Both the position numbers and the translations under genes were made by a program. Below, piece after piece: positions 128 to 42,815 of a stretch of DNA of 42,815 nucleotides. Numbering within the stretch: the first letter of the stretch is position 1; each line of letters opens with the position of its first letter. Below the pieces are notes generated by a model. The model was not told the DNA's origin, ran no database searches, and saw only the letters and a list, made by a program, of their open reading frames with translations. The stretch is from a virus. The stretch is from positions 1-42,815 of IMG/VR virus record IMGVR_UViG_3300034257_000005; one strand, 5' to 3'.

Positions 128-491
128 ACGCATGGGATTTGCATCAAGCAACATTGTTTTTGGTGTGGGTTCATACACATACCAATATGTTACCCGTGAC
201 ACATTTGGTTTTGCCATGAAGGCTACATCTGCCGTCATTGATGGAAAACGTAGAGCAATATTTAAAGACCCAGTTACGGCAAAAGGATCGAAAACGTCAG
301 CAAAAGGGTTACTTCATGTCGGCATTGACTGCGAAACTACACGATTCTGCTTGACTGAAAATGTAGATGAATTAATAGAAAATTCGGGTGAATTAAAAAC
401 TGTTTGCATTCATGGACATGTACTTTGCAACACAACATTAGGCGCAGTACGTGCAAATTTAGATCTTGAGTTGGAATTAGTTTCGGAGTAA
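1..491 (+). CDS. NAMPT/NadV-family phosphoribosyltransferase, C-terminal part (continues from 41677)
   Basis: This is the 3' part of the gene that starts at 41677. Joined across the circular overlap it gives a 500-aa protein, close to the roughly 490 aa of human NAMPT. Family signatures in this half include IYGDGI, the segment NIVFGVGS, RDTFGFAMK and the FKDP motif followed by a Lys/Ser-rich stretch, all of which line the phosphoribosyl/nucleotide pocket in NAMPT. An apparent GTG start at 93 is an internal valine codon and not a real start. See the entry at 41677 for function and context. Confidence 0.93.
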   Translation, partial: LWHYFGGLINDKGYKVLDPHIGLIYGDGITVELAYRILDQMERMGFASSNIVFGVGSYTYQYVTRDTFGFAMKATSAVIDGKRRAIFKDPVTAKGSKTSAKGLLHVGIDCETTRFCLTENVDELIENSGELKTVCIHGHVLCNTTLGAVRANLDLELELVSE

Positions 492-642: not shown

Positions 643-849
643 ATGTCATCTAAAGTAGCCAAATACTTTATAAAACAATTACATAAATACAGGATGTATA
701 TGAATTTTATCCAACGAATAGAACGTAATATGAAACGAGATTTCCCTGAAATAACACTCGAAGAATTAAAAGAAAGAATTAATTTAATTAAGCACATGAT
801 AGCAATTTCCCGCCAATCTAATTCCAAAAGAAAGGAATCAACAATATGA
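643..849 (+). CDS. Small basic protein upstream of the replication initiator
   Basis: This 68-aa, lysine- and arginine-rich protein has no recognised domain. An AAGGA ribosome-binding site lies five bases before the ATG. Its stop overlaps the start of the replication initiator gene (ATGA), so the two are translationally coupled. Position at the head of the replication pair suggests a replication accessory role, but nothing in the sequence proves it. The start was chosen from the binding site and the downstream coupling. Confidence 0.7.
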   Translation: MSSKVAKYFIKQLHKYRMYMNFIQRIERNMKRDFPEITLEELKERINLIKHMIAISRQSNSKRKESTI

Positions 850-1619
850 GCATTCAAAAATTCGAAGGATTAATGTCGCGTGAAGAATCAGGTTGCACCA
901 TAGTGATTAATGAAACTATGCAAGCAATTACTGATTTCACAATACTAGCAGTATATGCATATTTATTAACCAAGCCGAATTCTTGGGTAATCAATCCAAA
1001 AGAATTAATAAGGCATTTTAATTCATCTAAAGACAGAATTTACAAAGCACTTAATGGTCTAATTGATCTTAATTTACTCAGGAGAATTGAACATCGACAA
1101 AATGGTAAATTCGTGGGATGCGAATATAAACTTTACCTTAAACCCCATATAAACACTGAATCATCACCGTGTCCTTATTTACCGGACGCGGTAAAACCGG
1201 ATACGGAAAACAAGGACACATATAAAACAAAGAAAGATCTAGAAAACAAAGAAAGTAATATTACTAATAGTGATAATTATTCAAAAACAAAAAAACAAGA
1301 CGAGTTATTGGAAGAAATAAAAGAAGTTTATAACGAAGAAATGATATCGATGCCTAAATCAAAAAGGCTGAGCGATGATGTTAAAAGACATTTAAGAAAA
1401 ATGATTCTCAATTGGCCAGAGTATGAGAAAAACGGGAATAAATTCACAATAGAATCATTTAGAAATTATTTAAAATACATAAAAGAAAACCCAAATTTAA
1501 AATTCTTTACTGAAGCATACACAACGAAAGACGGGAATAAGAAAAGAAATAACTTAAAAACAATAACTAGTGACAAAGTAATAACTAAAATTATTAACGG
1601 AGAATACAGTGAAAATTAG
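846..1619 (+). CDS. Phage replication initiator-like protein (winged-helix N-terminus)
   Basis: 257 aa. Residues about 25-105 look like the winged helix-turn-helix of phage replication proteins (lambda O/DnaD type): a helical block, a recognition-type segment SSKDRIYKALNGLIDLNL and a basic wing. A Lys/Glu/Asn-rich linker (about 115-155) precedes a basic helical C-terminal domain that ends in a conserved-looking FRNYLKYIKENPNLKFF block. It overlaps the DnaB-like helicase gene by 11 bases, the usual initiator-helicase pairing. The probable role is origin binding and helicase recruitment. The middle of the gene is very AT-rich and could contain the origin, as in lambdoid phages, but I see no clear iterons. 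Confidence 0.7.
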   Translation: MSIQKFEGLMSREESGCTIVINETMQAITDFTILAVYAYLLTKPNSWVINPKELIRHFNSSKDRIYKALNGLIDLNLLRRIEHRQNGKFVGCEYKLYLKPHINTESSPCPYLPDAVKPDTENKDTYKTKKDLENKESNITNSDNYSKTKKQDELLEEIKEVYNEEMISMPKSKRLSDDVKRHLRKMILNWPEYEKNGNKFTIESFRNYLKYIKENPNLKFFTEAYTTKDGNKKRNNLKTITSDKVITKIINGEYSEN

Positions 1620-2934
1620 AAACTTTGACTTACCCTCAAGCATGGATCTCGAAATACGTACGATAGGTGCACTCCTGAGCATAGGAGATCATAAAAAGCA
1701 TTTAATACAACAATCTATGATGGAGTTATCAGAGGATTGTTTTTATAGTCATGATACTAGGGATATATATCTGATAATTAGAAAATTATTTGATAAGCAA
1801 GAACATTTCGATGTTATAAGTATATTAGCATTAATTCCCGATAATCGATTTGAGTTTTTTCAGAGGACTTTGCGCGATGAATTTTACACTGCAAATTTCT
1901 TAACGCACGATATAGAGCAACTTAACAATTACAGAACTTTACGCAAGCAGTTATTAATTTTACAAGCTACGCTAGATAGCGCGATAGACGAAAATTCCCC
2001 TTCAATAGCCTTAAATTTGATATCAGACAGCTTAAGCGCATTAACTGAAACTGTGAATGTTACAAAAAACCAGAATAAAGAAAGCGTTCAAACCATGGTT
2101 GATGAATGGTTTTCTCAGGAAGAGGATAACAATTATATTTATCTTGAGGATACTCAATTTCCACGAGTGCCTAACCAGTCATTAATCACGATAGCTGGGC
2201 GATCAGGACACGGCAAAACATTTATAGCCATGTACTTAATGGACAAGATAATTGATCAATTACCCGGCAAACAGAATATCTATTTTAATCTTGAAATGAA
2301 TAAGCACGTAATGTTACAGCGTTATGCGGGTTTATTGGGATATACTGGCGGCACTGATCGAGAAATTGTTCAAAATGCACTGCCTGAATTGCTAAAAAAG
2401 AACATGTATTTTGTTAATTTACCCATGATTACTATTGATCAAATTGAAACCATTAGCAGATTATCTGCATTAAGTCAGCCTGTCGGTGTCATGGTGGTTG
2501 ATTATTTAGGATTAATTACAACTAAAAGCAAAGCAGAAAGAAACGACTTAGATCAATCAGGCATTGCAAAACGGCTTGCTGCGCTGTCAATTGAATTAAA
2601 TTGCGTTGTCATTGCCTTGATACAAGTAAACAGGGACTTTAAGAATAGACCAGTTGGCGAACGAATTCCCAGACCTGAAGATTCATCCGAAAGCATGGGT
2701 TCAGTACATAGCGCGACATGGTGGCTAGGTATCGATCAGCCACAAAAAGACGATCCGAGTATCGAGTATAAAGATCTGTTCCAACTTGGGTGTAGAAAGG
2801 GACGAAACGGGGAAACATTTTTCTTTGACTTAGATTTTAGAGATGGCCAGTTTTTTAAGCGTGATAACAAATCTTATCAATCGAGTATCTCAAATACTGA
2901 TAGAATACATCATTTTTCTCCATTTAAGGACTAG
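1609..2934 (+). CDS. DnaB-type replicative helicase
   Basis: This 441-aa protein unwinds the phage replication fork. It has an N-terminal helical domain (about 1-110) and a RecA-like ATPase domain. Walker A GRSGHGKT is at about 197-204, followed by the NLEMNK motif typical of DnaB, Walker B GVMVVDYLGLI, and the IQVNRDFKNRP motif. The arginine-rich end of the core is followed by a short divergent tail. The start is GTG, preceded by GGAG, and overlaps the initiator gene. It is the last gene of the rightward early unit and is followed by the double hairpin at 2947-2997. Length matches the family (about 450 aa). Confidence 0.93.
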   Translation: MKIRNFDLPSSMDLEIRTIGALLSIGDHKKHLIQQSMMELSEDCFYSHDTRDIYLIIRKLFDKQEHFDVISILALIPDNRFEFFQRTLRDEFYTANFLTHDIEQLNNYRTLRKQLLILQATLDSAIDENSPSIALNLISDSLSALTETVNVTKNQNKESVQTMVDEWFSQEEDNNYIYLEDTQFPRVPNQSLITIAGRSGHGKTFIAMYLMDKIIDQLPGKQNIYFNLEMNKHVMLQRYAGLLGYTGGTDREIVQNALPELLKKNMYFVNLPMITIDQIETISRLSALSQPVGVMVVDYLGLITTKSKAERNDLDQSGIAKRLAALSIELNCVVIALIQVNRDFKNRPVGERIPRPEDSSESMGSVHSATWWLGIDQPQKDDPSIEYKDLFQLGCRKGRNGETFFFDLDFRDGQFFKRDNKSYQSSISNTDRIHHFSPFKD

Positions 2935-4359: not shown

Positions 4360-4691
4360 TATTGCCCCTTATAAAGCATGAAATAAAGTTGCTTGCCCAT
4401 GTTATCCCAATAGTTATCTATCAGTTTGCACTCTTCTTTTTCGGTTATCTCGCGCTTAAGCTTCAACTCAAGCCAGTTGATAATGTCATAGTTGGTAAAC
4501 GGGATATTAACTGTACTGCATAAGCCTTGAAGCCAGTTTTTGCATATAAGCCAATGGGGTTCATTATTTTTGTGAATCATTTCAGATTCGAATATATCCC
4601 GAACTTTGTTTAATAAATCTTGTTCGCTAGTGTGTTCAATTTCTTCATTAATGGATTCAATTATTAGTTGTTTATAGTCTTTTGCTTTCAT
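4359..4691 (-). CDS. Hypothetical protein
   Basis: 110 aa, charged and helical, with tryptophans at regular spacing in the second half (WLICKNWLQG, INWLELKL, DNYWDNM). No domain recognised. It is coupled to both neighbours: its start overlaps the upstream stop by four bases, and its stop shares one base with the downstream start. Function unknown. Confidence 0.65.
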   Translation of the reverse strand: MKAKDYKQLIIESINEEIEHTSEQDLLNKVRDIFESEMIHKNNEPHWLICKNWLQGLCSTVNIPFTNYDIINWLELKLKREITEKEECKLIDNYWDNMGKQLYFMLYKGQ

Positions 4692-4969
4692 TGTTTTGCT
4701 CCTAATTCAAGGCCTAAAATCATTGCGTGCATAAAGTGGTATAGTTCTTTTTTAGTTCCATAACCATGGGTACTTATGTTTCGTGAACCACCCGATTCAC
4801 ATTGTTGACAGAGTTTTATACCGCCATATGCTGAATCAAGATGATAATTGCCGGGCTGAGATACACATTTGCCGTCTATATGTTCATAGGGCTTTAATGG
4901 GTTATTAGTGAGCGTGTTAATTCTGTTTACGAGTATATCCAAGTCTTTGTTTGTAATTCTGATAGTCAT
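4688..4969 (-). CDS. Conserved phage protein (GNYHLDSAYGG family)
   Basis: 93 aa. It matches a widespread family of small phage proteins recalled from many genomes. The layout is an N-terminal helix ending in RINxLTNNPxxPY, the signature GNYHLDSAYGG at about 41-51, a cysteine pair CQQC at about 54-57, and a C-terminal helix KKELYHFMHAMILGLELG. No function is established for that family. It is coupled to the downstream gene by a four-base overlap. Confidence 0.7.
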   Translation of the reverse strand: MTIRITNKDLDILVNRINTLTNNPLKPYEHIDGKCVSQPGNYHLDSAYGGIKLCQQCESGGSRNISTHGYGTKKELYHFMHAMILGLELGAKQ

Positions 4970-4988
4970 TATTTGTGTTCCTTAGTAG

Positions 4989-5132
4989 TTATTTATTGTT
5001 TTTCCAGATTAGATAATCATCGATTGACTCAAATCCCCTATATCCGCCAGTAATTTTGACTATTACCGCAGACCACGGCATTAACTCTAATGCTTGTTTT
5101 TTACTTGATGCTTCTACGAATTCGGTTCTCAT
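4989..5132 (-). CDS. 47-aa hypothetical protein
   Basis: ATG at 5132, TAA at 4989. A good GAGGTG ribosome-binding site precedes the ATG and lies inside the end of the upstream 50-aa gene, one base away. The sequence (MRTEFVEASSKKQALELMPW, then an IVKITGGYRGFESIDDY region) looks like a small alpha/beta fold; a family of short phage proteins with a similar SKKxALxxMPW opening exists, without known function. Confidence 0.6.
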   Translation of the reverse strand: MRTEFVEASSKKQALELMPWSAVIVKITGGYRGFESIDDYLIWKNNK

Positions 5133-5133
5133 G

Positions 5134-5286
5134 TTACACCTCATATTTGCGTGATTTCGTTAAAACAATTCTGCGTTTAGGGCAGTAATAACTGTCTGTG
5201 AGGTATAACGATTTAACGGGTAATGTTGAACCAGCTAAGTAGCGTCTGAATCTGATTCTGTTTATTAGTCTGATTAATGTTGTCAT
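5134..5286 (-). CDS. 50-aa very basic protein
   Basis: ATG at 5286, TAA at 5134, about 12 Arg/Lys and only two acidic residues. The N-terminal half is arginine-rich (LINRIRFRRYLAG) and the C-terminus lysine- and arginine-rich, so it is likely to bind nucleic acid or acidic protein surfaces. It begins two bases after the stop of the first gene of the array. No family recognised. Confidence 0.55.
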   Translation of the reverse strand: MTTLIRLINRIRFRRYLAGSTLPVKSLYLTDSYYCPKRRIVLTKSRKYEV

Positions 5287-5287
5287 G

Positions 5288-5629
5288 TTAGGCCACCAAT
5301 GATTCTAAATTAGGGCGCAAATGGTATTGCATGGTGTGTATTGATTCTTCACGTCCCATATTCGGATCAGCTGGAATTACGCGATTAATTGTTATTATGT
5401 AATGGCATGAATCATGGGAAATTGTTAATTCGCTTGCTTTAGGGAAGTAAATCCAGCCTTCGATGGTTAATCCATCTTTTATTGTGTTTAGTGCAAGCTT
5501 GTTACTTAGTACCCTTGCAACACTGCGCCATGCTGACTGAAAGTTAGGTACTGATTTGTACCATGAGTTATGAGTTAATGCCCATTCATATATGTGAGCG
5601 TGTTTTTTTAAGTCTGCTAATGTTTTCAT
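5288..5629 (-). CDS. First gene of the leftward small-gene array
   Basis: 113 aa from the ATG at 5629, chosen because GGAG lies seven bases upstream; a frame extending to 5698 has no such site. It contains an aromatic N-terminal block (HIYEWALTHNSWY) and a C-terminal half with histidines and methionines. No domain recognised. It is transcribed from the operator-containing promoter at 5734-5762 and leads an eleven-gene unit. Confidence 0.65.
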   Translation of the reverse strand: MKTLADLKKHAHIYEWALTHNSWYKSVPNFQSAWRSVARVLSNKLALNTIKDGLTIEGWIYFPKASELTISHDSCHYIITINRVIPADPNMGREESIHTMQYHLRPNLESLVA

Positions 5630-6630: not shown

Positions 6631-7185
6631 TTAAGACAAGAGTTTGGTTACACTTGGACGCGATATCTTTAGTTCTCTAGCTATCTGACTAATGTTCATG
6701 CCCTGCTTACATAGCTCTATTGCTGGCTCTCTCAGCCTCATATCCAGCGGTTGCTTACCAAATGGCTTGCCTGACTTAGTACCCCGCTCTTTAGCTATTG
6801 CAATGCCCTCTCGTTGTCGCGACTTACTTATGCATCGCTCTAACTGCGCAACACTACCCATGATTTGCAACATAAAAGTATGGTACAAGTTATCCGAATG
6901 AGGACTGAATATTAGGTTTTCGGTGTGGAAATGTACGCAAACGCCCTTTGCTAGAGTAGTTTCTAAAATCTCAAGCACGTCACGCAATGATCTCGCTAAA
7001 CGGTCAACGCTATGCACATGCAACACATCACCAGACCTGAGCATCTTGATACAGATGTTAAGATTCGGACGCTCGCGCACGATCCCTGACACCTTATCTT
7101 CGAATACTTCATCAAGCTTTATGCCTTCAAGCTGCCTATCTGTTGATTGCTCTCTAGTTGATACCCTCTTATATCCAATGTCCAT
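6631..7185 (-). CDS. Small serine recombinase (resolvase/invertase family)
   Basis: 184 aa, normal for Hin/Tn3-resolvase type enzymes. The nucleophile is Ser9 in YKRVST. The DRLARSLRD motif (about 60-68), the central dimerisation helix with MLQIMGSVAQLER, and a C-terminal helix-turn-helix (NISQIARELKISRPSVTKLL) are all present. It is therefore predicted to be active. Possible roles are dimer resolution of a plasmid-like or replicating genome, or inversion. No integrase-length serine recombinase or attachment site is evident. GGAG precedes the ATG. Candidate binding sites lie just upstream at 7249-7347. Confidence 0.9.
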   Translation of the reverse strand: MDIGYKRVSTREQSTDRQLEGIKLDEVFEDKVSGIVRERPNLNICIKMLRSGDVLHVHSVDRLARSLRDVLEILETTLAKGVCVHFHTENLIFSPHSDNLYHTFMLQIMGSVAQLERCISKSRQREGIAIAKERGTKSGKPFGKQPLDMRLREPAIELCKQGMNISQIARELKISRPSVTKLLS

Positions 7186-11079: not shown

Positions 11080-11331
11080 ATGACAGCAAATCCTAAAGAT
11101 TTTTCGATAGGTAAAGAAGTATTCTGGGTGTCCTACCACAACGGAAGAATAATTATAAAATCGGGTTTAATAACTCAATTAAGTGCTAACCATGTAAATG
11201 TTAAGTGGAACAACCGTAAAAAATGGAACATATTTGCTGAAGTTGATTATGAATCTATTCCTATTGGGAACTTATATAACTCCAAAAAAGAAGTCAAAGA
11301 TGCTCTGTTGAAGTATGCTGGTGAACTATGA
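11080..11331 (+). CDS. Hypothetical protein coupled to RNA ligase
   Basis: 83 aa, basic, mostly predicted beta strand (FSIGKEVFWVSYHNGRIIIK, then a GLITQLSANHVNVKWNN region), suggestive of a small SH3/KOW-like barrel that may bind nucleic acid. AAGGA precedes the ATG, and its stop overlaps the RNA ligase start by four bases, so it may act with the ligase. No family is named with confidence. Confidence 0.6.
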   Translation: MTANPKDFSIGKEVFWVSYHNGRIIIKSGLITQLSANHVNVKWNNRKKWNIFAEVDYESIPIGNLYNSKKEVKDALLKYAGEL

Positions 11332-11849
11332 CTGAACAATCAATGGAGCCAGAATTCATCTCCTGGCCTAAAATTCCCAGATACAAAAACGAACGCATCA
11401 TAATCACTGAAAAAATAGACGGCACTATTGGCGCAATCATTGTTACTGAATGGGGCGATGTGTTTGCTCAGTCACGCCATAGGATTATCAAGCCTGATTG
11501 CAGTGATGATAACTTCGGTTTCGGAAGCTGGGTTGCTGCGCATAAGTCGGAACTATTTCATCTAGGCGTTGGTCATCACTTTGGTGAGTGGTGGGGGCAA
11601 GGAATTCAACGTAGGTACGGTATGCAAACGAAGCAGTTTAGCGTGTTCAATACATACAGGCCAGCCGAGTCATTGCCTGATATTGTTCGCCAAGTGCCGA
11701 TATTGCCTGACGATATTGACGAAGCATTAGCAATTCTACATACACAAGGCTCACAAGCCGCACCGGGATATATGCGCCCAGAAGGCATTGTCATTTACTC
11801 ATGCCTATACAAACTACGTTATAAAATAATCATTGAAGAGGATTTATAG
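11328..11849 (+). CDS. RNA ligase-like nucleotidyltransferase
   Basis: 173 aa. It matches the covalent nucleotidyltransferase (Rnl2-like RNA ligase) core: motif I EKIDG with the predicted adenylated Lys29, motif Ia/III regions including GEWWGQGIQRRYG (about 86-98), motif IV EGIVIYS (about 155-161) and motif V YKLRYK (about 162-167). Family enzymes seal 3'-OH to 5'-phosphate RNA ends after ATP-dependent adenylylation. It is shorter than T4 Rnl2 (334 aa) and lacks a C-terminal specificity domain. Upstream of tRNA genes and RtcB, it fits a tRNA-repair role. Confidence 0.75.
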   Translation: MTEQSMEPEFISWPKIPRYKNERIIITEKIDGTIGAIIVTEWGDVFAQSRHRIIKPDCSDDNFGFGSWVAAHKSELFHLGVGHHFGEWWGQGIQRRYGMQTKQFSVFNTYRPAESLPDIVRQVPILPDDIDEALAILHTQGSQAAPGYMRPEGIVIYSCLYKLRYKIIIEEDL

Positions 11850-12071
11850 ATGGAAGACGATACCCTTACGGATAAGGAACGCGAGTTTTTAGCCAGAAAG
11901 AAAAATAAGGACAAGATGACGACTGTAATGCGAGCCAAAGAGGCAGCATGGTTACGCAGGGAGAATGAGCGGTCATTGAACCGACTTCCCAATGAGTACA
12001 GGAGCTTTGCTAAGGCGGGTTATGCTACCCCAAGTAAGTACGGGAAATACGGCATACCTACAGATGATTGA
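11850..12071 (+). CDS. Small basic hypothetical protein
   Basis: 73 aa, very rich in Lys, Arg and Glu and mostly helical (DKEREFLARKKNKDKM, then a RRENERSLNRLPNEYR block), ending in a Gly/Tyr/Lys tail. The ATG directly abuts the RNA ligase stop, and GAGGA precedes it, so it belongs to that operon. RNA binding is plausible from charge only. Confidence 0.55.
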   Translation: MEDDTLTDKEREFLARKKNKDKMTTVMRAKEAAWLRRENERSLNRLPNEYRSFAKAGYATPSKYGKYGIPTDD

Positions 12072-12096
12072 CGGCTAAACTTTAGTTTAGTAATAT
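12068..12096 (+). promoter_or_regulatory. tRNA-cluster promoter with perfect operator
   Basis: TTGACG, 17-bp spacer, TAATAT. The spacer is G followed by CTAAAC-TTTA-GTTTAG (12075-12090), a perfect 12/12 operator. The start point falls near 12103, a few bases before the first tRNA (12105), so the tRNA and RtcB unit appears to be under the phage repressor. Confidence 0.8.
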
Positions 12097-12104
12097 CGCT
12101 TAAT

Positions 12105-12180
12105 GCCGAAATAGCACAATTGATGGTGCAGCTCCCTTGTAAGGAGAAGGTTCTGGGTTTGAGTCCTAGTTTCGGCACCA
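12105..12180 (+). tRNA. tRNA-Thr (TGT)
   Basis: 76 nt. Acceptor GCCGAAA/TTTCGGC, D stem GCAC/GTGC, anticodon loop CTTGTAA (TGT), T loop TTTGAGT and encoded CCA. It reads ACA codons. First gene of the cluster. Confidence 0.93.
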
Positions 12181-12185
12181 GTTAT

Positions 12186-12260
12186 TCTCGGGTAGCTCAG
12201 AGGCAGAGCAGGTGGCTGTTAACTACCGTGTCGATGGTTCGATCCCATCCCTGAGAGCCA
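12186..12260 (+). tRNA. tRNA-Asn (GTT)
   Basis: 75 nt. Acceptor TCTCGGG/CCTGAGA (one G-U), D stem GCTC/GAGC, anticodon loop CTGTTAA (GTT), T loop TTCGATC and encoded CCA. Confidence 0.94.
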
Positions 12261-12262
12261 AC

Positions 12263-12340
12263 CTCCGAATAGCGCAGTCTGGTCAGCGTAATCGGTTTGG
12301 AACCGATAGGTCGAAGGTTCGAATCCTTCTTCGGAGACCA
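12263..12340 (+). tRNA. tRNA-Pro (TGG)
   Basis: 78 nt. Acceptor CTCCGAA/TTCGGAG, anticodon stem ATCGG/CCGAT with loop TTTGGAA (TGG), T loop TTCGAAT and encoded CCA. Confidence 0.95.
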
Positions 12341-12346
12341 TATTAT

Positions 12347-12421
12347 TGGACTATAGTGAAATGGTTATCACACTAGACTTTGACTCTGGTATTTCAGGTT
12401 CGAGTCCTGATAGTCCTGCCA
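12347..12421 (+). tRNA. tRNA-Gln (TTG)
   Basis: 75 nt. Anticodon loop CTTTGAC (TTG), T loop TTCGAGT, G73 and encoded CCA. Acceptor pairs 2-7 are good, but position 1-72 is U-U where glutamine tRNAs normally have a weak U-A pair. Confidence 0.9.
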
Positions 12422-12424
12422 TAA

Positions 12425-12551
12425 CGGGGTATGCGTGAGGTAGCTGGTAAGTCACGCTGATGCGGTTAGCATAACATACAGCTCTCGGAGGGTTTGTTCC
12501 TAGGAACCGCAACCCAAGAGATTCTAGGTTCGAGTCCTAGTACCCCGACCA
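12425..12551 (+). tRNA. Oversized 127-nt tRNA-like gene (identity unclear)
   Basis: The outer frame is a textbook tRNA: perfect acceptor CGGGGTA/TACCCCG, T arm CTAGG-TTCGAGT-CCTAG and encoded A-CCA. A D-like stem GCGTG/CACGC (12433-12437 with 12453-12457) has a 15-nt loop. About 35-50 extra nucleotides lie between. In fold A, stem TGCGGTT/AACCGCA (12461-12467 with 12505-12511) would be an anticodon stem with a loop insertion of about 34 nt. In fold B, nested stems CTCT/AGAG, GGGTT/AACCC and GTTCC/GGAAC (12482-12520) form a giant variable-arm-like hairpin. The anticodon cannot be assigned. Confidence 0.65.
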
Positions 12552-12557
12552 GTTTAT

Positions 12558-12631
12558 AGCGAGATAGTTTAAAGGTAGAATAATGGGCTCATACTCCGTA
12601 GATACAAGTTCGATTCTTGTTCTCGCTACCA
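12558..12631 (+). tRNA. tRNA-Met-type (CAT)
   Basis: 74 nt. Acceptor AGCGAGA/TCTCGCT, anticodon loop CTCATAC (CAT), T loop TTCGATT and encoded CCA. A paired 1-72 position argues against an initiator. A lysidine-modified isoleucine tRNA is an alternative that sequence alone cannot exclude. Confidence 0.9.
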
Positions 12632-12636
12632 GAATA

Positions 12637-12709
12637 GTTGAATAGCTCAGTGGTAGAGCAACCTCTTGATAAGGCGTAGGTCGGTGGTTCGAATCCACCC
12701 TCTCCACCA
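12637..12709 (+). tRNA. tRNA-Ile-like (GAT) with degenerate acceptor stem
   Basis: 73 nt. D arm GCTC-AGTGGTA-GAGC, anticodon loop TTGATAA (GAT), T arm GGTGG-TTCGAAT-CCACC and encoded CCA are all good. The acceptor strands (GTTGAA and CTCTCC) pair at only about three of six positions, and one anticodon-stem pair is C-C. It may be a decaying gene, or a transcript with another role. Confidence 0.65.
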
Positions 12710-12722
12710 ACAAAGGACTGAA

Positions 12723-12893
12723 ATGAATAACATAATAGATTTGCTGACCATAATTGTTCTTGTTTTCGCAGCAACATATTTGGCTTATAAAATTCCAGAT
12801 GTGATCATAAATGGGTTCGAGCATGGCTCTGATGTTTATGTTCAATTATCATCCAGTGATTTTCAATTAACTCAAGATGAGCAACAATCATGA
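12723..12893 (+). CDS. 56-aa single-span membrane protein
   Basis: ATG at 12723 with AAGGA six bases upstream, 14 bases after the last tRNA. The N-terminal residues 4-24 (IIDLLTIIVLVFAATYLAY) form a transmembrane helix, and the rest is an acidic, Gln-rich tail. The stop overlaps the next start by four bases. No family recognised. Confidence 0.65.
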   Translation: MNNIIDLLTIIVLVFAATYLAYKIPDVIINGFEHGSDVYVQLSSSDFQLTQDEQQS

Positions 12894-13066
12894 TGTGTTT
12901 TAGAGATAAAACTTATTGCCTGTCACCAAATTGCACCAATCAATGCGGGAGACAATTAACCAACGAAGTCAAAGAAGCAGCGATACGAGCTGGTCAGCTT
13001 ATTGCATGTGCGTATTTTTGCGGTGAGCTAGAAAAAGAAGAAGCTAATGACAAAAGTAAATTATAA
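12890..13066 (+). CDS. 58-aa cysteine-containing protein upstream of rtcB
   Basis: The start at 12890 overlaps the membrane gene (ATGA), and the stop at 13066 lies 20 bases inside rtcB. Six cysteines (CFRDKTYCLSPNCTNQCG, then two later) could bind zinc; this resembles short phage proteins with a CxDxxxCxSPxCxNxCG pattern of unknown role. The C-terminus is charged. Confidence 0.6.
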   Translation: MMCFRDKTYCLSPNCTNQCGRQLTNEVKEAAIRAGQLIACAYFCGELEKEEANDKSKL

Positions 13067-14264
13067 AGTTATTAATACAGGCGGAGCGCCAATCAAACAT
13101 TGGACTAATGGCGTATTGTTCGAGGAAGAAGCTAAGAAACAGTTAATTGGTTTATCTCAACTCCCGTTTATATACAAACACTTGGCTGTAATGCCGGACG
13201 TACATGCTGGAAAAGGATCAACAATAGGCACTGTATTAGCCACTCATAAAGCAATTATTCCTGCCGCAGTTGGCGTTGATTTAGGTTGTGGCATGATGGC
13301 TTGCAAGACAAGTCTTATGGCCAGTGATTTGCCGGATAACCTGTGGGATATTCGTTGTATGATTGAGTCTATGATTCCTCATGGTTCAAACCCAAAGAAT
13401 CAACAGTTAGGCTCATGGGGGAATTTGCCAGATTTAGTCTTTACTGCATGGTCTGATTTAGAATCAGGATTTTTAAAATTATGCGATAAATACCCTCGAT
13501 TCAAGAACAGCAACAACATTAACCATCTCGGCACTTTGGGCGGCGGCAATCACTTTGTTGAAATCTGTATAGACGAAGACCAATCCGTATGGTTTATGCT
13601 TCATTCTGGTTCCAGAGGAATAGGAAATTTGATTGGAAGGACTTTTATTGAATTAGCTAAAAAAGATATGGAGCGGTATTTTATCAATTTGCCTGATAAA
13701 GATATGGCCTATTTGCCAGAAGGTAGCGAGCATTATGCCGATTACCTATCTGCTGTTCGCTGGGCGCAGCACTTTGCAATGCAGAATCGTATCGTAATGA
13801 TGTGTAATATGGTTGGATCTGTTAAAGCTACATTGAATCGAGAGTTTGAAACTCAATTGGAAGCCGTAAATTGCCATCATAATTACGTCAGTTTCGAAGA
13901 GCATTTTGGTCAAAAAGTAATAATAACTAGGAAAGGTGCTGTGTCTGCACGTAAAGACGAATTAGGAATTATCCCCGGCTCAATGGGCGCAAAATCATTG
14001 ATAGTAAGAGGTCTTGGCAATGTTGACAGTTTCCACAGTTGTAGTCATGGTGCTGGTCGAGTTATGTCTCGTACTACTGCTAAACGTCTTATATCAGAGG
14101 CCGAACACAAGGCGGCACTATCTGGGGTTGAGTGTAATAATAGTGTGTCAACTCTTGATGAAACTCCTGCTGCTTATAAGAATATTGACGATGTAATGGC
14201 GGCTCAGTCTGATTTAGTTGAGATTGTTCATACACTGAAGCAGGTTTTATGCATTAAGGGGTAG
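13047..14264 (+). CDS. rtcB: RtcB-type RNA ligase
   Basis: 405 aa, normal for bacterial RtcB. The family joins 2',3'-cyclic phosphate or 3'-phosphate RNA ends to 5'-OH ends using GTP and manganese. Visible motifs are DVHAGKGSTIGTV (51-63), metal-binding GVDLGCG (76-82, Cys81), GGGNHFVEI, MLHSGSRGIGN, and SCSHGAGRVMSR near residue 335 with the guanylylated histidine. It lies in the same unit as the tRNA cluster, so repair of tRNAs cleaved by host anticodon nucleases is a likely job. No archease gene is seen nearby. Confidence 0.95.
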   Translation: MTKVNYKVINTGGAPIKHWTNGVLFEEEAKKQLIGLSQLPFIYKHLAVMPDVHAGKGSTIGTVLATHKAIIPAAVGVDLGCGMMACKTSLMASDLPDNLWDIRCMIESMIPHGSNPKNQQLGSWGNLPDLVFTAWSDLESGFLKLCDKYPRFKNSNNINHLGTLGGGNHFVEICIDEDQSVWFMLHSGSRGIGNLIGRTFIELAKKDMERYFINLPDKDMAYLPEGSEHYADYLSAVRWAQHFAMQNRIVMMCNMVGSVKATLNREFETQLEAVNCHHNYVSFEEHFGQKVIITRKGAVSARKDELGIIPGSMGAKSLIVRGLGNVDSFHSCSHGAGRVMSRTTAKRLISEAEHKAALSGVECNNSVSTLDETPAAYKNIDDVMAAQSDLVEIVHTLKQVLCIKG

Positions 14265-14266
14265 TT

Positions 14267-14383
14267 ATGGGAATTTCCGAGTTTATAATAAGGTTTTATT
14301 TGTCAATTATTTTTGGGGTAAGTCTAACTACTGTATTATTTAGCGAAATATTTTTGCTCCATAAAATGGTTCAATTTTGGTGA
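14267..14383 (+). CDS. 38-aa membrane peptide after rtcB
   Basis: ATG at 14267 with AAGGGG six bases upstream, stop at 14383. One transmembrane helix covers most of the peptide (ISEFIIRFYLSIIFGVSLTT onward). It lies two bases after rtcB and three before the phosphoesterase gene, so it is clearly part of the operon. Function unknown. Confidence 0.6.
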   Translation: MGISEFIIRFYLSIIFGVSLTTVLFSEIFLLHKMVQFW

Positions 14384-14386
14384 TTT

Positions 14387-14911
14387 ATGTCTGAAGTCTT
14401 CTTTACATCCGATAGTCATTTTGGCCATAGGGGTATTTTATCGTTCGATTCAACGAAGCCCTATAGAGACTTCCCGACAATAGAAGACCATGATGCCGAG
14501 CTAATTACCCGCTGGAACGAGCAAGTTCAGGTTAATGATACCGTTTACCACATGGGCGACTTTTGTTTCGGCAAGCGTAATCTCCAAATTGCACAGTTGT
14601 TAAACGGAAAGAAGATCCTCATCATGGGCAATCATGACATCTATGGCGCACCAGAATATCTAAAGTACTTCCATAAGCTGTTTGGCGCACATGATTATAA
14701 GGGCATGATATTGACCCATGTCCCTGTACATCCTAATCAGTTGTCGCGCTATTTCATGAACATACATGGCCATCTGCATACAGTTCATGTAACTAAAGAA
14801 GACGGTTCTCGGGATAATAGGTATTTTAATGCGTGCGTGGAGAATCACAATCTGACTCCCGTTCCATTAGATGAGATATTCAACTTCTGGGCGGAGAATA
14901 AGCATGTATGA
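14387..14911 (+). CDS. Calcineurin-like metallophosphoesterase
   Basis: 174 aa. All metal-binding motifs are present in order: SDSHFGH (8-14), GDFCFG (about 57-62), GNHD (about 83-86), THVPVHP (about 109-115) and HGHLH (about 126-130). Enzymes of this family cleave phosphomono- or diesters with two metal ions. Short phage members are common and of unknown substrate. Next to RtcB, a role in trimming RNA ends (for example cyclic phosphates) is attractive but is inference. It overlaps the following gene by eight bases. Confidence 0.88.
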   Translation: MSEVFFTSDSHFGHRGILSFDSTKPYRDFPTIEDHDAELITRWNEQVQVNDTVYHMGDFCFGKRNLQIAQLLNGKKILIMGNHDIYGAPEYLKYFHKLFGAHDYKGMILTHVPVHPNQLSRYFMNIHGHLHTVHVTKEDGSRDNRYFNACVENHNLTPVPLDEIFNFWAENKHV

Positions 14912-35465: not shown

Positions 35466-35818
35466 GCCATCCAACAGAGTCACAGGAGCAGATCGCAGTC
35501 ATTGATTTTATTAAATTCCAATACCCAGAATTATTACCATTTACTATTCATATTAAAAATGAGCGCAAAACATCATTTTATATGGGCGCACTAAACAAGC
35601 GTTTAGGCGTTCTAAAAGGTACGCCAGACTTGTTCATTGCATGGCCGACAGATAGGCATCATGGATTGTTTATTGAAATGAAATCAGTAAAAGGAAGGCC
35701 AACGGTAGAGCAAAAAGAATTCATCGATAGAGCTAATGAGAAGGGATATTATGCTACAATAGCGTATGGTGCAGACGAAGCAATCAACACCATACGGAAG
35801 TACTTAATCGTGGAATGA
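35462..35818 (+). CDS. VRR-NUC domain nuclease
   Basis: 118 aa. A PD-(D/E)xK nuclease core is visible: an N-terminal helix with QEQIAVIDFIKFQYPE, GTPDLFIAWP with the catalytic Asp, and FIEMKSVKGRPTVEQKEF with Glu-x-Lys and the VRR-type helix. Stand-alone phage VRR-NUC proteins resolve branched DNA. The gene end overlaps the convergent IS66-like orf2 by 15 bases, and it contains a perfect operator palindrome at 35591-35606. Confidence 0.87.
   Translation: MSHPTESQEQIAVIDFIKFQYPELLPFTIHIKNERKTSFYMGALNKRLGVLKGTPDLFIAWPTDRHHGLFIEMKSVKGRPTVEQKEFIDRANEKGYYATIAYGADEAINTIRKYLIVE
35591..35606. promoter_or_regulatory. Intragenic perfect operator palindrome
   Basis: CTAAAC-AAGC-GTTTAG lies inside the VRR-NUC gene. 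It matches the operator consensus at all 12 defined positions, but no -35/-10 pair flanks it. It might act as a roadblock or loop partner for the other operators, or be a chance product of the codons used. Confidence 0.4.
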
Positions 35819-36187
35819 ATCGCTAATCTTGTAATCACCGATTAATTTAGGCTGTTTCTTTTTTACAATGACAGTTGGTTGTTTCAGTGCATTGCCCGCA
35901 ATGATAGTCATCAAGTCAGCAAAAGAGATAGTCCTAAAGTCTTTGATTGAGTTAATCTTAAACTTAGTACCTTCCATGCGTTTATACCATAATACAAACC
36001 CCGTACCATCCCAATGTAGAATCTTCATTTTGTTAAAATAACGGTTTACAAAAACATAATAAGAGCCATCATATAGGTTTGAGTCTGAATTTTGTTTTAC
36101 AAGCTCAGATAAACCGTCAATGGACATTCTGAAATCAACAGGTTTTTCAGCGATATGTATTTGTTGCGCTGATTGATTAATTAACAT
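35804..36187 (-). CDS. IS66 Orf2 (TnpB)-like protein
   Basis: 127 aa. The order IHIAEKPVDFRMSIDGLSEL, YYVFVNRYFNKMKILHWDG, then GFVLWYKRMEGTKFK is the fingerprint of the IS66 accessory protein TnpB (Orf2, typically about 115 aa), whose function in transposition is unknown. No DDE transposase (TnpC) is present and no IS inverted repeats are visible. It is last in the exonuclease-RecT-SSB unit, one base after the orf1-like gene. Confidence 0.8.
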   Translation of the reverse strand: MLINQSAQQIHIAEKPVDFRMSIDGLSELVKQNSDSNLYDGSYYVFVNRYFNKMKILHWDGTGFVLWYKRMEGTKFKINSIKDFRTISFADLMTIIAGNALKQPTVIVKKKQPKLIGDYKISDSFHD

Positions 36188-36188
36188 T

Positions 36189-36782
36189 CTATAAGTCCTT
36201 TAGTAGTTCAATAATTTTAATAATTTTAGTAGGGCATAATTCTGGTGATACGATAACTTTTACTCCTTTTGTTATTGTTAATTCGATAGGGTTTCTTTCT
36301 TCTATAATCTCGGCTTCTGGAGCATGGTGTACTGGAAGATGTGTAGGTTCTGGAGCGCGTGTTATAAATTTCATAGGTTCTTGCTCCGGTATGTCCATGT
36401 ATTCTTCGACTGGAACTTCAATATTAATTTTTTCAACAAGGAATGACTCAGGGATAACTTCACCATAAATTTCATGCAGCTTTTCCATGTAGCCCAAATG
36501 AGACATTACTATTGATAGGCGATGAATCAATAGCCCATTTTTACTGCAAAAGTAGCTTCTTGGAGGGTTTGTTGCTAAATAAAGGCGAGTTAATTCAAGT
36601 TCCCTCTCTTTATCTGTCTTATATTTACTATGCCAAGGATTAAATCGTTGCTTCCAATTGGTTAATAATTTAGAATGTAACTTGTGCTTAATCGCATAAT
36701 TAACAACGCCTAAACTAGAATCTTGTTGATTTATACAATGCTCGTACCAGAATTGTATCTCTTCATTATGTGCCACTATCAT
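36189..36782 (-). CDS. IS66 Orf1 (TnpA)-like protein
   Basis: 197 aa. The N-terminus (residues 5-45) has the helix-turn-helix-like pattern of IS66 TnpA, with a Trp, a tyrosine/alanine pair and a final W near residue 43 (LLTNWKQRF). The C-terminus has IELTITKGVKVIVSPELCPT followed by a Leu-rich end, which corresponds to the TnpA terminal motif. A Pro/Glu-rich linker (about 120-165) makes it longer than usual. Pairing with an Orf2-like gene one base downstream strongly supports this call. Confidence 0.65.
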   Translation of the reverse strand: MIVAHNEEIQFWYEHCINQQDSSLGVVNYAIKHKLHSKLLTNWKQRFNPWHSKYKTDKERELELTRLYLATNPPRSYFCSKNGLLIHRLSIVMSHLGYMEKLHEIYGEVIPESFLVEKINIEVPVEEYMDIPEQEPMKFITRAPEPTHLPVHHAPEAEIIEERNPIELTITKGVKVIVSPELCPTKIIKIIELLKDL

Positions 36783-39129: not shown

Positions 39130-39342
39130 ATGAATTTAGAAGAAACCGAGAAGTATTTCGGCAGTTTACATGCTGCAACCGTGAAGCTAGGGATAGCAGC
39201 ACAAAACATGACCAGATGGAGAAAACAGGGCTATATCCCTTTATTGCAACAGTATAGAATTGCGGAGCTAACTGAGGGTGAACTTATGCCCGATGATATA
39301 GATCCGAAAAGCCAAAGTTATCGACTAGGGAAGAGAAAATGA
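39130..39342 (+). CDS. Cro-like DNA-binding regulator
   Basis: 70 aa. The pattern YFGSLHAATVKLGIAAQNMT, then RWRKQGYIPLLQQYRIAELT with G-x-L after it, is that of Cro/YdaS-type helix-turn-helix regulators of lambdoid phages. It lies directly downstream of the divergent operator and is first in the rightward early unit, so it most simply represses its own and other operator promoters. There is no separate CI-like gene. It overlaps the next gene by four bases. Confidence 0.85.
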   Translation: MNLEETEKYFGSLHAATVKLGIAAQNMTRWRKQGYIPLLQQYRIAELTEGELMPDDIDPKSQSYRLGKRK

Positions 39343-40178
39343 CAATAAGAATAAAAAAGATATTAGCAATTAGTGGTTTGGCTTTAGCGTTAACAGCATG
39401 TGAGCGAGTTCCACCGGGATATCGCGGTGTATTAGTTAGTATGATGGGTGACTCAAAAGGTGTTTCAGAGGAAACAGTAGGTACGGGATGGCAGTATACT
39501 GGATTCTCTAAGCAATTATATCTGTTCCCGGTGTTCTTGCAGAATCATTCTTGGAATGGCGATCAGGCTATTACTGTTCAGACCTCCGAAGGACTAACCA
39601 TAACTACGGACGTTGGAATTACTTATCAAATTAAAGAAGAAAATGTTGTTAAGGTTTTCACTAAGTATCGTTTAGGTGTGCGTGAAATTACCGATACTTT
39701 TTTGCACAATATGGCTCGTGATGCGATGAACGAAGTTGCTAGTACTATGACTGTTGACCAGATTTACGGACTTAAAAAAGAAGAGTTTATCCAGCGCGTT
39801 AACGTATTAGTGAAAACAAGTGCTGCGGTCAATGGCATTGAAGTTGATAAAATATATCTCATGGGTTCATTCCATCTGCCAGACTCGGTTAGAAGTTCCA
39901 TTGATGCCAAAATTCAAGCGTCTCAGAATGCAATAAAAGTAGAGAACGAGGTGGCAACGTCCAGAGCCGAAGCCATGAAGCGGATTGTAGAAGCCGAAGC
40001 GAATGCAAAACAGATTATCATTAATGCTGAGTCACAGGCCAAAGCGAATAAGATTCTTGCAGAGAGTCTAACCAGTGAATTCGTGCAATATCAGGCTATT
40101 TTGCGCTGGAACGGGCAGTTGCCGACAACGAATGCCGGAGGCGCATTACCGTTCATTAACATTGGGAAGCAGCCATGA
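39339..40178 (+). CDS. SPFH (prohibitin/HflC-like) lipoprotein
   Basis: 279 aa. A lipoprotein signal ends in LTAC with Cys21, then PPGYRGVLVSMMG opens the SPFH domain (about 25-190). A long Ala/Glu/Lys coiled coil (about 195-250) follows, as in prohibitins and HflC. In bacteria HflK/HflC cap the FtsH protease; related phage proteins have no proven role. An outer or inner membrane location depends on residue 22, here Glu, which does not match the classical Asp retention signal. It is coupled to both neighbours. Confidence 0.85.
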   Translation: MTIRIKKILAISGLALALTACERVPPGYRGVLVSMMGDSKGVSEETVGTGWQYTGFSKQLYLFPVFLQNHSWNGDQAITVQTSEGLTITTDVGITYQIKEENVVKVFTKYRLGVREITDTFLHNMARDAMNEVASTMTVDQIYGLKKEEFIQRVNVLVKTSAAVNGIEVDKIYLMGSFHLPDSVRSSIDAKIQASQNAIKVENEVATSRAEAMKRIVEAEANAKQIIINAESQAKANKILAESLTSEFVQYQAILRWNGQLPTTNAGGALPFINIGKQP

Positions 40179-40396
40179 GATCGATAATGTATAAGATATT
40201 GCTTTTTTTCATTGGCATAATCGGAATACAAGGTCTAATTTTACCCTGGGTTATTTCCAACACTATATTGCCTATTTGGGCAGATCTCGGCATATTAGCC
40301 GGGCTTGTGTTCTTATGGGTATTTATAATTGATAAGTTAGTTTCTAATACAATACGGAGATTAAATAATGATTCCAATAAGGACACGGGCAATTAA
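40175..40396 (+). CDS. Small membrane protein with two helices
   Basis: 73 aa. Two transmembrane helices (about 6-28 and 36-56) are followed by a basic, polar C-terminal tail. It overlaps the SPFH lipoprotein gene by four bases and the next gene by 29. It may partner the SPFH protein in the membrane. A holin is another possibility, but its place in the early operon argues against that. Confidence 0.65.
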   Translation: MRSIMYKILLFFIGIIGIQGLILPWVISNTILPIWADLGILAGLVFLWVFIIDKLVSNTIRRLNNDSNKDTGN

Positions 40397-40844
40397 CATG
40401 CCCATGAGTGAGGCTAAAGCTTTTATTTGGAATAAAATTAAAGCAAATCATGAGCAACTTATGGATGATAGAACAAGTTCAGTATCGCGCATTCATTTAG
40501 AAAAAGAACAACTAAAACTAATTAGAAAGTTTAACTCAGTCGATGAACGGCCAACTATTGGTTTCCCCGTCCCATCTAACGATATTTGTTCACACATAAT
40601 TAAGGACAATCACATGTTTATTGAGTTTGAGAAAGAATCTATTAACCCAATTTTTGGGGATGTTGCTGATGGCCAATTATTTATTGATAGAGAAGGGTGT
40701 TTATGTCAGAAATCTTCTGATGAATATAACGAAGCATGGTGTATAGCTGATGAGAATGGCAAGCCTAAAGCAGAAATGTTTAATTATGAAAATTTTACAA
40801 GTGTAACAAAAATATTACCCTTAATTAAAAAAATATCATTCTAA
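40368..40844 (+). CDS. Hypothetical protein upstream of the NAD+ module
   Basis: 158 aa with GGAG before the ATG at 40368. The N-terminal half is helical and charged; the C-terminal half is strand-rich with FIEFEKESINPIFGDVADGQ and cysteine/tryptophan positions (CLCQKSSDEYNEAWCIADEN). No family recognised. Its place directly before the two NAD+-related enzymes makes it a candidate accessory factor. Confidence 0.6.
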   Translation: MIPIRTRAINMPMSEAKAFIWNKIKANHEQLMDDRTSSVSRIHLEKEQLKLIRKFNSVDERPTIGFPVPSNDICSHIIKDNHMFIEFEKESINPIFGDVADGQLFIDREGCLCQKSSDEYNEAWCIADENGKPKAEMFNYENFTSVTKILPLIKKISF

Positions 40845-40853
40845 GGACGATCA

Positions 40854-41684
40854 ATGCTATTACTCAATAACGCACCAGTCCGCTGGTTCAACTTCCCGGG
40901 TGGTGAGATACAAGTAAAATTACCTGAAGAAATACCGGAAGAATCATGTGTTTTGACATGGATGCCTAAAGACCCATCATCAATAGTGCTATTGCAGTTA
41001 ACGATTAATGCGATGAAACATGCGGGAATCCATGACATAATTTTGGATTGTTTGTATTTGCCATACGGCCGTCAGGATAGAGTTTGCTCACCCGGTGAAG
41101 CATTTAGTTTGGAAGTGATTTGCAATATGTTAAATGCACTTACTCCACTAACGATGATTCGATTTTGGGATACTCACAATTGGGATAAAACCGTTGATTT
41201 AATGGGCAATCATTATTTGTTTGAAATGGAAGAGGTGGATATTTTTGCTAAATATAAAATATTAGACCATTTTGATCTATACAAAACACGTTTATGCGCT
41301 CCAGATCATGGCGCAATCAATCGCGTGGAACAAATCGTGAAACATTTTGAATTGATGACTCCAACCGTCTATGAAAAAAACCGTAATCCTGAATCTGGAC
41401 TAATCGAAGGCATTAAGCTGAATAAATATTTTTGTGATCCCAATGGAGATAGCATTTTAGTTGTTGATGACATTTGCGATGGTGGCAGCACATTTATTCA
41501 TCTTGCGGAAGCACTAAAAAAAGACGGGGCAGAAAATTTATATCTGTATGTCACGCATGGGATTTTCAGTAAAGGTGTATCTGAGTTACTTAAGCATTAT
41601 AAGCACATTTATTGTCACCATGTGTTTCATCCATTACTTAACGATCATGATGGACTAACAGTATTAAGGAAATTTGATGTCTAA
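40854..41684 (+). CDS. PRPP-synthase-like enzyme, candidate ADP-ribose pyrophosphate synthetase (Adps)
   Basis: 276 aa, shorter than bacterial Prs (about 315). It has two Prs-type alpha/beta domains with YLPYGRQDRV (69-78), a WDTHN motif where classical Prs has DLHA, and the ribose-5-phosphate/PRPP loop VVDDICDGGSTF (193-204). Classical enzymes make PRPP from ribose-5-phosphate and ATP. In NARP1-type phages a Prs homologue instead makes ADP-ribose pyrophosphate. It is coupled (eight-base overlap) to the NAMPT-like gene. The substrate cannot be fixed from sequence. Confidence 0.9.
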   Translation: MLLLNNAPVRWFNFPGGEIQVKLPEEIPEESCVLTWMPKDPSSIVLLQLTINAMKHAGIHDIILDCLYLPYGRQDRVCSPGEAFSLEVICNMLNALTPLTMIRFWDTHNWDKTVDLMGNHYLFEMEEVDIFAKYKILDHFDLYKTRLCAPDHGAINRVEQIVKHFELMTPTVYEKNRNPESGLIEGIKLNKYFCDPNGDSILVVDDICDGGSTFIHLAEALKKDGAENLYLYVTHGIFSKGVSELLKHYKHIYCHHVFHPLLNDHDGLTVLRKFDV

Positions 41685-42815
41685 TAACCCATTGTTGAAC
41701 ATAGATTTTTATAAGGTCGATCATCGGAGGCAATACCCTGACACCACAACGGAGATATATAGCAATTTCACTCCGCGCTATGTAAAACATAACCATAACA
41801 TGCTTCGAGATTTCGATAATCAGGTAGTCGTGTTTGGTATTCAGGGTTTTATCAGATCGTTTATGTGGGACTGGGAGATTAATTTTTTTTGTTGCCCGAA
41901 GGAGGATGTTATTAGGGAATACAAGGAAATTATATGTAAGTCTCTAAACCTAGAAGATTTTGATTGCAGCCATCTTGAGTCATTGCATGACCTTGGATAT
42001 ATGCCTATCGAGATTAAGGCTATAGAAGAAGGCTGTCGTGTTCCTATAGGCGTTCCAGTCCTTACTATACGAAATACATTGTCTGAGTTCTTCTGGTTGA
42101 CCAATTATCTGGAAACCGCAATATCTGCGTCATTATGGAAGCCGATTACATCCGCAACTACTGCGTTCGAGTTCAAGAGATTGTTACGTAAATACGCAAA
42201 AATAACTGGCGTTCATGAGGATGTAGTGCAATACCAAGCGCATGATTTCAGTTTTCGTGGAATGTCTGGGATTGAAGATGCGACTATCTCCAGTGCTGCG
42301 CATTTAACCTCTTTCTATGGTACAGATTGCGTTCCGGCTATAGCTTATCTCAGTGAATATTACAGCGCAGATCGTGAACCCGTTATAGGTTGTTCTGTTC
42401 CTGCGACTGAGCATAGCGTCATGTGTGCTAAGGGCGGTCAATATGGTGAGTTCATGACAATCCATAGACTGATTGAGGAAACGTACCCATCTGGAATAGT
42501 TTCTTTAGTTGCAGATAGTTATAACTTCTGGGCAACCTTACGGTTTATCGGTACTGAAATGAAAGATATTATCATGAAGCGTGATGGTAAAATTGTCATT
42601 CGTCCTGATTCTGGCGATCCGTTTAAGATTATATGTGGCGATCCAAATCATCAAGACTATACATTGGAAGGACAAGGAGCATTACAAGCTTTATGGCATT
42701 ATTTCGGGGGATTAATCAATGACAAAGGATACAAAGTACTAGACCCACACATTGGTTTAATCTACGGAGATGGTATCACTGTGGAATTGGCCTACAGAAT
42801 ATTGGATCAAATGGA
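41677..42815 (+). CDS. NAMPT-like enzyme, candidate Namat/NadV (continues at base 1)
   Basis: The ATG at 41677 overlaps the Prs-like stop by eight bases. The protein continues at base 1 to 491 across the circular join, 500 aa in all. It carries HDFSFRG (189-195), YGTDCVP with Asp217, VPATEHS with the catalytic His246, VADSYNF (278-284), RPDSGD (309-314) and YGDGI (363-367), all matching NAMPT active-site motifs. NAMPT joins nicotinamide to PRPP; its NARP1 relative joins nicotinamide to ADP-ribose pyrophosphate to give NAD+ directly. No NMN adenylyltransferase gene is seen, which favours the latter. Confidence 0.93.
   Translation, partial: MSNNPLLNIDFYKVDHRRQYPDTTTEIYSNFTPRYVKHNHNMLRDFDNQVVVFGIQGFIRSFMWDWEINFFCCPKEDVIREYKEIICKSLNLEDFDCSHLESLHDLGYMPIEIKAIEEGCRVPIGVPVLTIRNTLSEFFWLTNYLETAISASLWKPITSATTAFEFKRLLRKYAKITGVHEDVVQYQAHDFSFRGMSGIEDATISSAAHLTSFYGTDCVPAIAYLSEYYSADREPVIGCSVPATEHSVMCAKGGQYGEFMTIHRLIEETYPSGIVSLVADSYNFWATLRFIGTEMKDIIMKRDGKIVIRPDSGDPFKIICGDPNHQDYTLEGQGALQALWHYFGGLINDKGYKVLDPHIGLIYGDGITVELAYRILDQM
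42689..42815. repeat. Terminal direct repeat, second copy
   Basis: Identical to bases 1-127; see that entry. Joining the two copies restores an uninterrupted reading frame through the NAMPT-like gene. Confidence 0.95.

Follow-up and report, generated by a model that had tools for sequence, protein, structure and literature searches.

A probable NARP1-type NAD+ reconstitution gene pair in the early replication operon of a phage genome of about 42.7 kb

The stretch of DNA analyzed here (the window, 42,815 nucleotides) comprises positions 1-42,815 of the IMG/VR virus record IMGVR_UViG_3300034257_000005. An exact direct repeat of 127 bp is found at both of its ends, bases 1-127 duplicating 42689-42815, so that the assembly is circular and 42,688 bp long. 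Two adjacent genes, one encoding a protein of the Prs fold and one a protein of the NAMPT fold, are located at this circular join within the following set of features:

39130-39342, plus strand: P22 Cro-like regulator heading the operon (29.9 bits, narrowly missing the Pfam cut-off of 30.2)
39339-40178, plus strand: SPFH/Band_7 protein of the early operon (profile match)
40175-40396, plus strand: small protein of 73 aa, left flank of the cassette, also kept in relatives that lack NARP1
40368-40844, plus strand: protein of 158 aa immediately upstream of Adps, no family match, homologue of similar length in phages L008 and L009
40854-41684, plus strand: Adps-like gene (putative ADP-ribose pyrophosphate synthetase, Prs fold), 276 aa (profiles, tree, signature residues, AF2 model)
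41677-42815, plus strand: Namat-like gene, part 1, codons 1-379 and part of codon 380 (PDB matches, motif, profiles)
41779-41790, plus strand: predicted selectivity-clamp loop YVKH, Namat residues 35-38, with Lys as its third residue, a feature also of the ICP1 and Felixounavirus relatives
128-491, plus strand: Namat-like gene, part 2 with stop codon (placed by the 127-bp end repeat)
168-200, plus strand: predicted selectivity-clamp helix motif GSYTYQYVTRD, Namat residues 394-404, with adenine-stacking Y396 and Y400 (rule from PMC12774641)
643-849, plus strand: protein of 68 aa, right flank of the cassette, adjoining the 73-aa gene in phage L205, which lacks NARP1
846-1619, plus strand: replication initiation or helicase-loader-like protein
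1609-2934, plus strand: DnaB-like replicative helicase

A first-pass annotation of the sequence had described overlapping Prs-like and NAMPT-like genes, and both open reading frames are indeed present, with an overlap of 8 bp (41677-41684). It was also right in letting the second gene run over the circular join; however, its continuation at 1-491 counted the 127 bp of the repeat twice. The correct segment is 128-491, and 41677-42815 joined to 128-491 encodes 500 aa. Profile searches confirmed the position of the pair between a Cro-like gene and the helicase as well, the order being Cro-like regulator, further genes, Adps, Namat, replication protein and DnaB helicase, with YqaJ exonuclease, RecT and SSB encoded nearby on the opposite strand. 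Given this position in a Cro-to-helicase operon, early expression of the pair is likely. Promoter and terminator scans of the forward strand stayed at or below chance level and lend no support to a specific early promoter. Just downstream of Namat, at 588-615, the minus strand carries a perfect match to the sigma-70 promoter consensus, which opposes the direction of the operon. Elsewhere the phage genome comprises an RNA-repair-like set at 11328-14911 (RNA ligase, five tRNA genes at 12105-12631, RtcB ligase and phosphoesterase), a serine recombinase of the DNA-invertase type at 6631-7185, and an IS66 TnpB-like protein together with a TnpA-like protein of weak, sub-threshold score at 35804-36782. 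PADLOC gave no match for ten proteins of unknown or accessory function, and the relatives of the terminase and coat proteins were too distant to name a host.

Judged from its sequence, the second, Namat-like protein is the strongest evidence for a NARP1 module. It matches the NAPRTase and NAMPT_N profiles and phrog_448 (1.5e-141), and among solved structures it comes closest to 9W5X and 9W5W (533 bits), both of which are SPbetaL1 Namat (PMC12774641), while human NAMPT entries score at most 241 bits. The Nampt-like catalytic core is kept (D10, Y12, F191, R194, D217, A243, H246, R309, D311). Namat enzymes are defined by a clamp helix of the form GSX-Phi-X-Phi-X-Phi-TRD whose third and seventh residues are aromatic, as well as by a clamp loop with Arg, Lys or Tyr for adenine stacking, the next residue stacking if this is Lys or Tyr (PMC12774641). 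The window protein agrees with the helix consensus, and its loop follows the rule with Lys in position 3 and a His, predicted to stack, behind it. The residue is identical to that of SPbetaL1 Namat at 17 of 20 NAD+-contact positions, and two of the three differing contacts (R40 to K37, A362 to G366 and F392 to Y396, SPbetaL1 to window) match other Namats. In contrast, of eight Nampt controls from phages and bacteria, seven carry a G(G/A)(G/A)LLQ-type sequence (GGGLLQ or GGALLQ) at the clamp site, the eighth, from Salmonella phage Munch, is likewise unlike Namat there, and an adjacent Adps gene was found next to none of the eight. The Namat profile, built with the window group left out, scored 694 bits against 329 for Nampt. 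Similarly, the tree separates Nampt from the window protein and the Namats with 99% SH-aLRT support, while AU tests forcing the window group together with Nampt gave p values of 0.203 and 0.11 and thus no rejection at 0.05.

Two further observations concern Namats in general. The window protein reaches 523 bits with the NCBIfam equivalog model NF006629 'nicotinate phosphoribosyltransferase' (cut-off 405), and automated pipelines will consequently mislabel NARP1 Namats. Besides, two other phage Namats (L212, 9892-12348; L069, 5989-8397) contain intein-like insertions within the active-site motif RPD/SGDP.

The first protein of the pair matches Pribosyltran_N, Pribosyltran and phrog_619 (7.9e-65). 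With TIGR01251 it scores 105-105.9 bits, under the curated cut-off of 113; however, since some bacterial Adps-like proteins exceed this value, the cut-off alone proves little. Profiles of the two families separate more clearly, the Adps profile giving 245 bits and that of canonical Prs 63, so that the profile comparison proposed in the first-pass annotation came out on the Adps/Namat side for both proteins. Seven family residues distinguish the window protein from Prs (P70/G, G81/R, A154/G, G182/N, G210/T, F214/L and L231/A, window/Prs). A few common Adps residues are missing, the window protein having S43, N109 and K112 instead, and beyond its own group it is only 22-38% identical to most of the family. 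The AF2 model (pLDDT 91.8) finds its best fold matches among PRPP synthetases at about 20% identity, and a fold shared with these enzymes leaves the predicted substrate undecided. In the tree, thirteen Prs proteins split from the window protein and the Adps group, which includes SPbetaL1 Adps and ICP1 NrsA, with 99% SH-aLRT support. Placement with true PRPP synthases, named beforehand as the result that would speak for ordinary salvage, was thus not obtained by tree or profile, though it is statistically possible: AU tests forcing the window group to the Prs side gave p values of 0.0585, 0.424 and 0.245, again without rejection at 0.05. As the AU tests are non-significant for both proteins, phylogeny alone is supportive of the Adps/Namat placement but not decisive. 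The WDTHN motif, previously taken as a pointer to this pathway, is present in the protein; as a diagnostic feature of Adps we discarded it, because D106 and H108 are common to canonical Prs (DLHA) and many family members differ at this site.

Taken together, published clamp residues in one protein and the grouping of its partner with experimentally linked Adps/NrsA proteins support the NARP1-type reading given in the first-pass annotation. We consider it very probable (about 0.92) that the two genes form a NARP1 module that would refill the host NAD+ pool. The Adps/Namat identity is derived from sequence, tree, profiles and gene context, while both reactions and a role in counter-defence would follow by analogy with the characterized homologues, namely NARP1 of SPbetaL1, DyoEdafos and P. 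foliorum, and ICP1 NrsAB. According to the scheme established for homologues (PMC12774641), Adps would transfer pyrophosphate from ATP onto ADP-ribose to give ADPR-PP, and Namat would combine ADPR-PP with nicotinamide directly to NAD+. Defence NADases of the TIR, SIR2 and SEFIR types release ADP-ribose and nicotinamide, the substrates of this pathway, so that the phage could refill the host NAD+ pool and finish its cycle. Protection against Kongming is known for homologues of the pair (PMC12774641), and for ICP1 NrsAB a rise of NAD+ was seen in infected cells that carry Nezha (PMC11559045).

Alternatively, the pair could be an ordinary salvage pathway that converts ribose-5-phosphate to PRPP and further to NMN (Nampt/NadV), with an adenylyltransferase of the host completing NAD+. 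Such a function is what the database names, ribose-phosphate pyrophosphokinase and nicotinate/nicotinamide phosphoribosyltransferase, imply, and the AU tests provide no formal exclusion of a Prs- or Nampt-side placement. In addition, Namat enzymes keep the ability to form NMN from PRPP in vitro (PMC12774641), and some salvage activity is therefore possible. However, the Namat clamp motif and the adenine-stacking aromatics are present in the window protein and absent in all Nampt controls and in NadV of plasmid pNAD1, and the Prs-like protein stays below the Prs family cut-off with a far better Adps than Prs score. Consequently, salvage as the actual function appears highly improbable to us. 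The missing adenylyltransferase, brought forward earlier in favor of NARP1, contributes little: a PF01467 (CTP_transf_like) search for an NMNAT-type domain found none in the 42.8-kb genome, while 14 of 14 control genomes were positive. Yet hosts supply NMNAT, and its absence from the phage is thus consistent with NARP1 but not diagnostic.

The pair is conserved beyond the window. With the NAMPT-like protein as query, 71 related viral loci were found, and 68 of them have a Prs-like gene as well; of the other three, two carry the Nampt motif and one is cut by a contig end. Scans of viral contigs with Adps, DnaB or the 158-aa protein as single query found no relatives. Both genes are under purifying selection, as the dN/dS ratio between L008 and L009 is about 0.10 for each. 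In bacteria, the Prs-like gene lies within the fetched flanks in 77 of 80 loci, and chromosomal Adps-Namat pairs may serve a housekeeping role. In an Acinetobacter record (L004, 3090-6307), for example, the pair is followed by a gene annotated as NMN adenylyltransferase/ADP-ribose pyrophosphatase. These loci suggest housekeeping uses, and one might accordingly envision that the phage pair makes NAD+ from ADP-ribose for general recycling during infection rather than for escape from defence. The distribution among related phages argues against this idea. The order Cro-SPFH-73aa-Adps-Namat occurs in L008, L009, L207 and L212. In contrast, the related phage L205 shows the order Cro-SPFH-73aa-68aa-Rep-DnaB, its 73-aa and 68-aa genes abutting, and lacks both Adps and Namat; the pair is likewise missing from L214. 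Thus, in the same Cro-to-helicase operon, Adps-Namat is optional cargo. Since, moreover, characterized phage homologues counter Kongming and Nezha, we regard general recycling as unlikely. The accessory status of the NARP1 module is compatible with a role in counter-defence but no proof of it. As a side observation, a 119-aa open reading frame behind SPFH in L242 (8706-9065) resembles only the N-terminal part of Adps; it is either a cassette remnant or a stand-alone protein.

The SPFH/Band_7 gene upstream of the pair deserves a separate consideration. Its product might work together with the NAD+-rebuilding enzymes, for instance as a membrane scaffold near NADase effectors, and SPFH genes do recur close to NAD-rebuilding genes: L030 has one (4480-5334) between Adps and Namat, Myxococcus phage Mx1 has one flanked by Nampt and NMNAT, and in L262, L279 and L283 one lies near NARP genes. 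The records with such a neighbouring SPFH/Band_7 gene include L161 (4802-5677), and the recurrence spans unrelated phages. Among 16 NAD-gene phages that possess Band_7, it is located within about 5 kb in six, compared to about two expected, the latter being a crude hand estimate from record lengths in a biased sample. However, L010 carries NARP1 without SPFH nearby, L205 and L214 carry SPFH without NARP1, and 69 of 80 SPFH loci have no NAD genes in their vicinity, while clustering of early genes could account for the proximity that is seen. A functional partnership is thus very unlikely in our view, and the more specific notion of a third component that organizes the rebuilding of NAD+ or gives resistance to membrane-linked NADase effectors is very improbable. 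The association is suggestive and should be treated as a weak lead only.

NARP1 has been known since 2024, and the pair represents a new member of it, not a new kind of system. Its value lies in its setting: NARP1 is added in a phage of about 42.7 kb with P22/lambda-like early genes, and a relative with the same operon minus the pair makes it possible to follow gain or loss of the pathway where the background is otherwise similar. Furthermore, the database names 'nicotinate phosphoribosyltransferase' and 'ribose-phosphate pyrophosphokinase' currently hide NARP1, while in practice the clamp motif tells Namat from Nampt.

Among the known systems, NARP1 of the Bacillus phage SPbetaL1 (Adps WIT26982.1, Namat WIT26983.1) shares the two-gene order Adps-Namat, and its Namat is 51% identical to that of the window, with nearly all NAD+ contacts kept. 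Its clamp helix reads GSFTYQYNTRD. It differs by an Arg in the clamp loop where the window protein has Lys, by phage type and gene context, and by a distant Adps. NrsAB of the Vibrio phage ICP1, which is reportedly of help against Nezha (PMC11559045), likewise consists of a Prs-like gene next to a NAMPT-like one, with Adps/Namat residues and a clamp-loop Lys; however, ICP1 is a large virulent phage and its sequences are distant from the window pair. The NARP2-like Nampt proteins of Vibrio phage phi-ST2 and Myxococcus phage Mx1 share the NAMPT fold and the nicotinamide pocket, but have GGGLLQ or GGALLQ in place of the Namat motif and lack an adjacent Adps. Mx1 encodes an NMNAT nearby, whereas this trait of NARP2 and salvage systems, an NMN adenylyltransferase encoded with Nampt, did not appear in the PF01467 search of the window genome. 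NadV of plasmid pNAD1 from [Haemophilus] ducreyi (L160, 3828-5315) groups with the Namats in the tree, yet both adenine-stacking aromatics are replaced (GAQTYQRNTRD) and Adps is absent; it looks like a Namat that has gone back to the use of PRPP. Finally, E. coli Prs (b1207) has the fold, the catalytic D and H and the PRPP-type loop in common with the window Adps, but differs in the family-specific residues, and the window protein scores far lower on the Prs profile.
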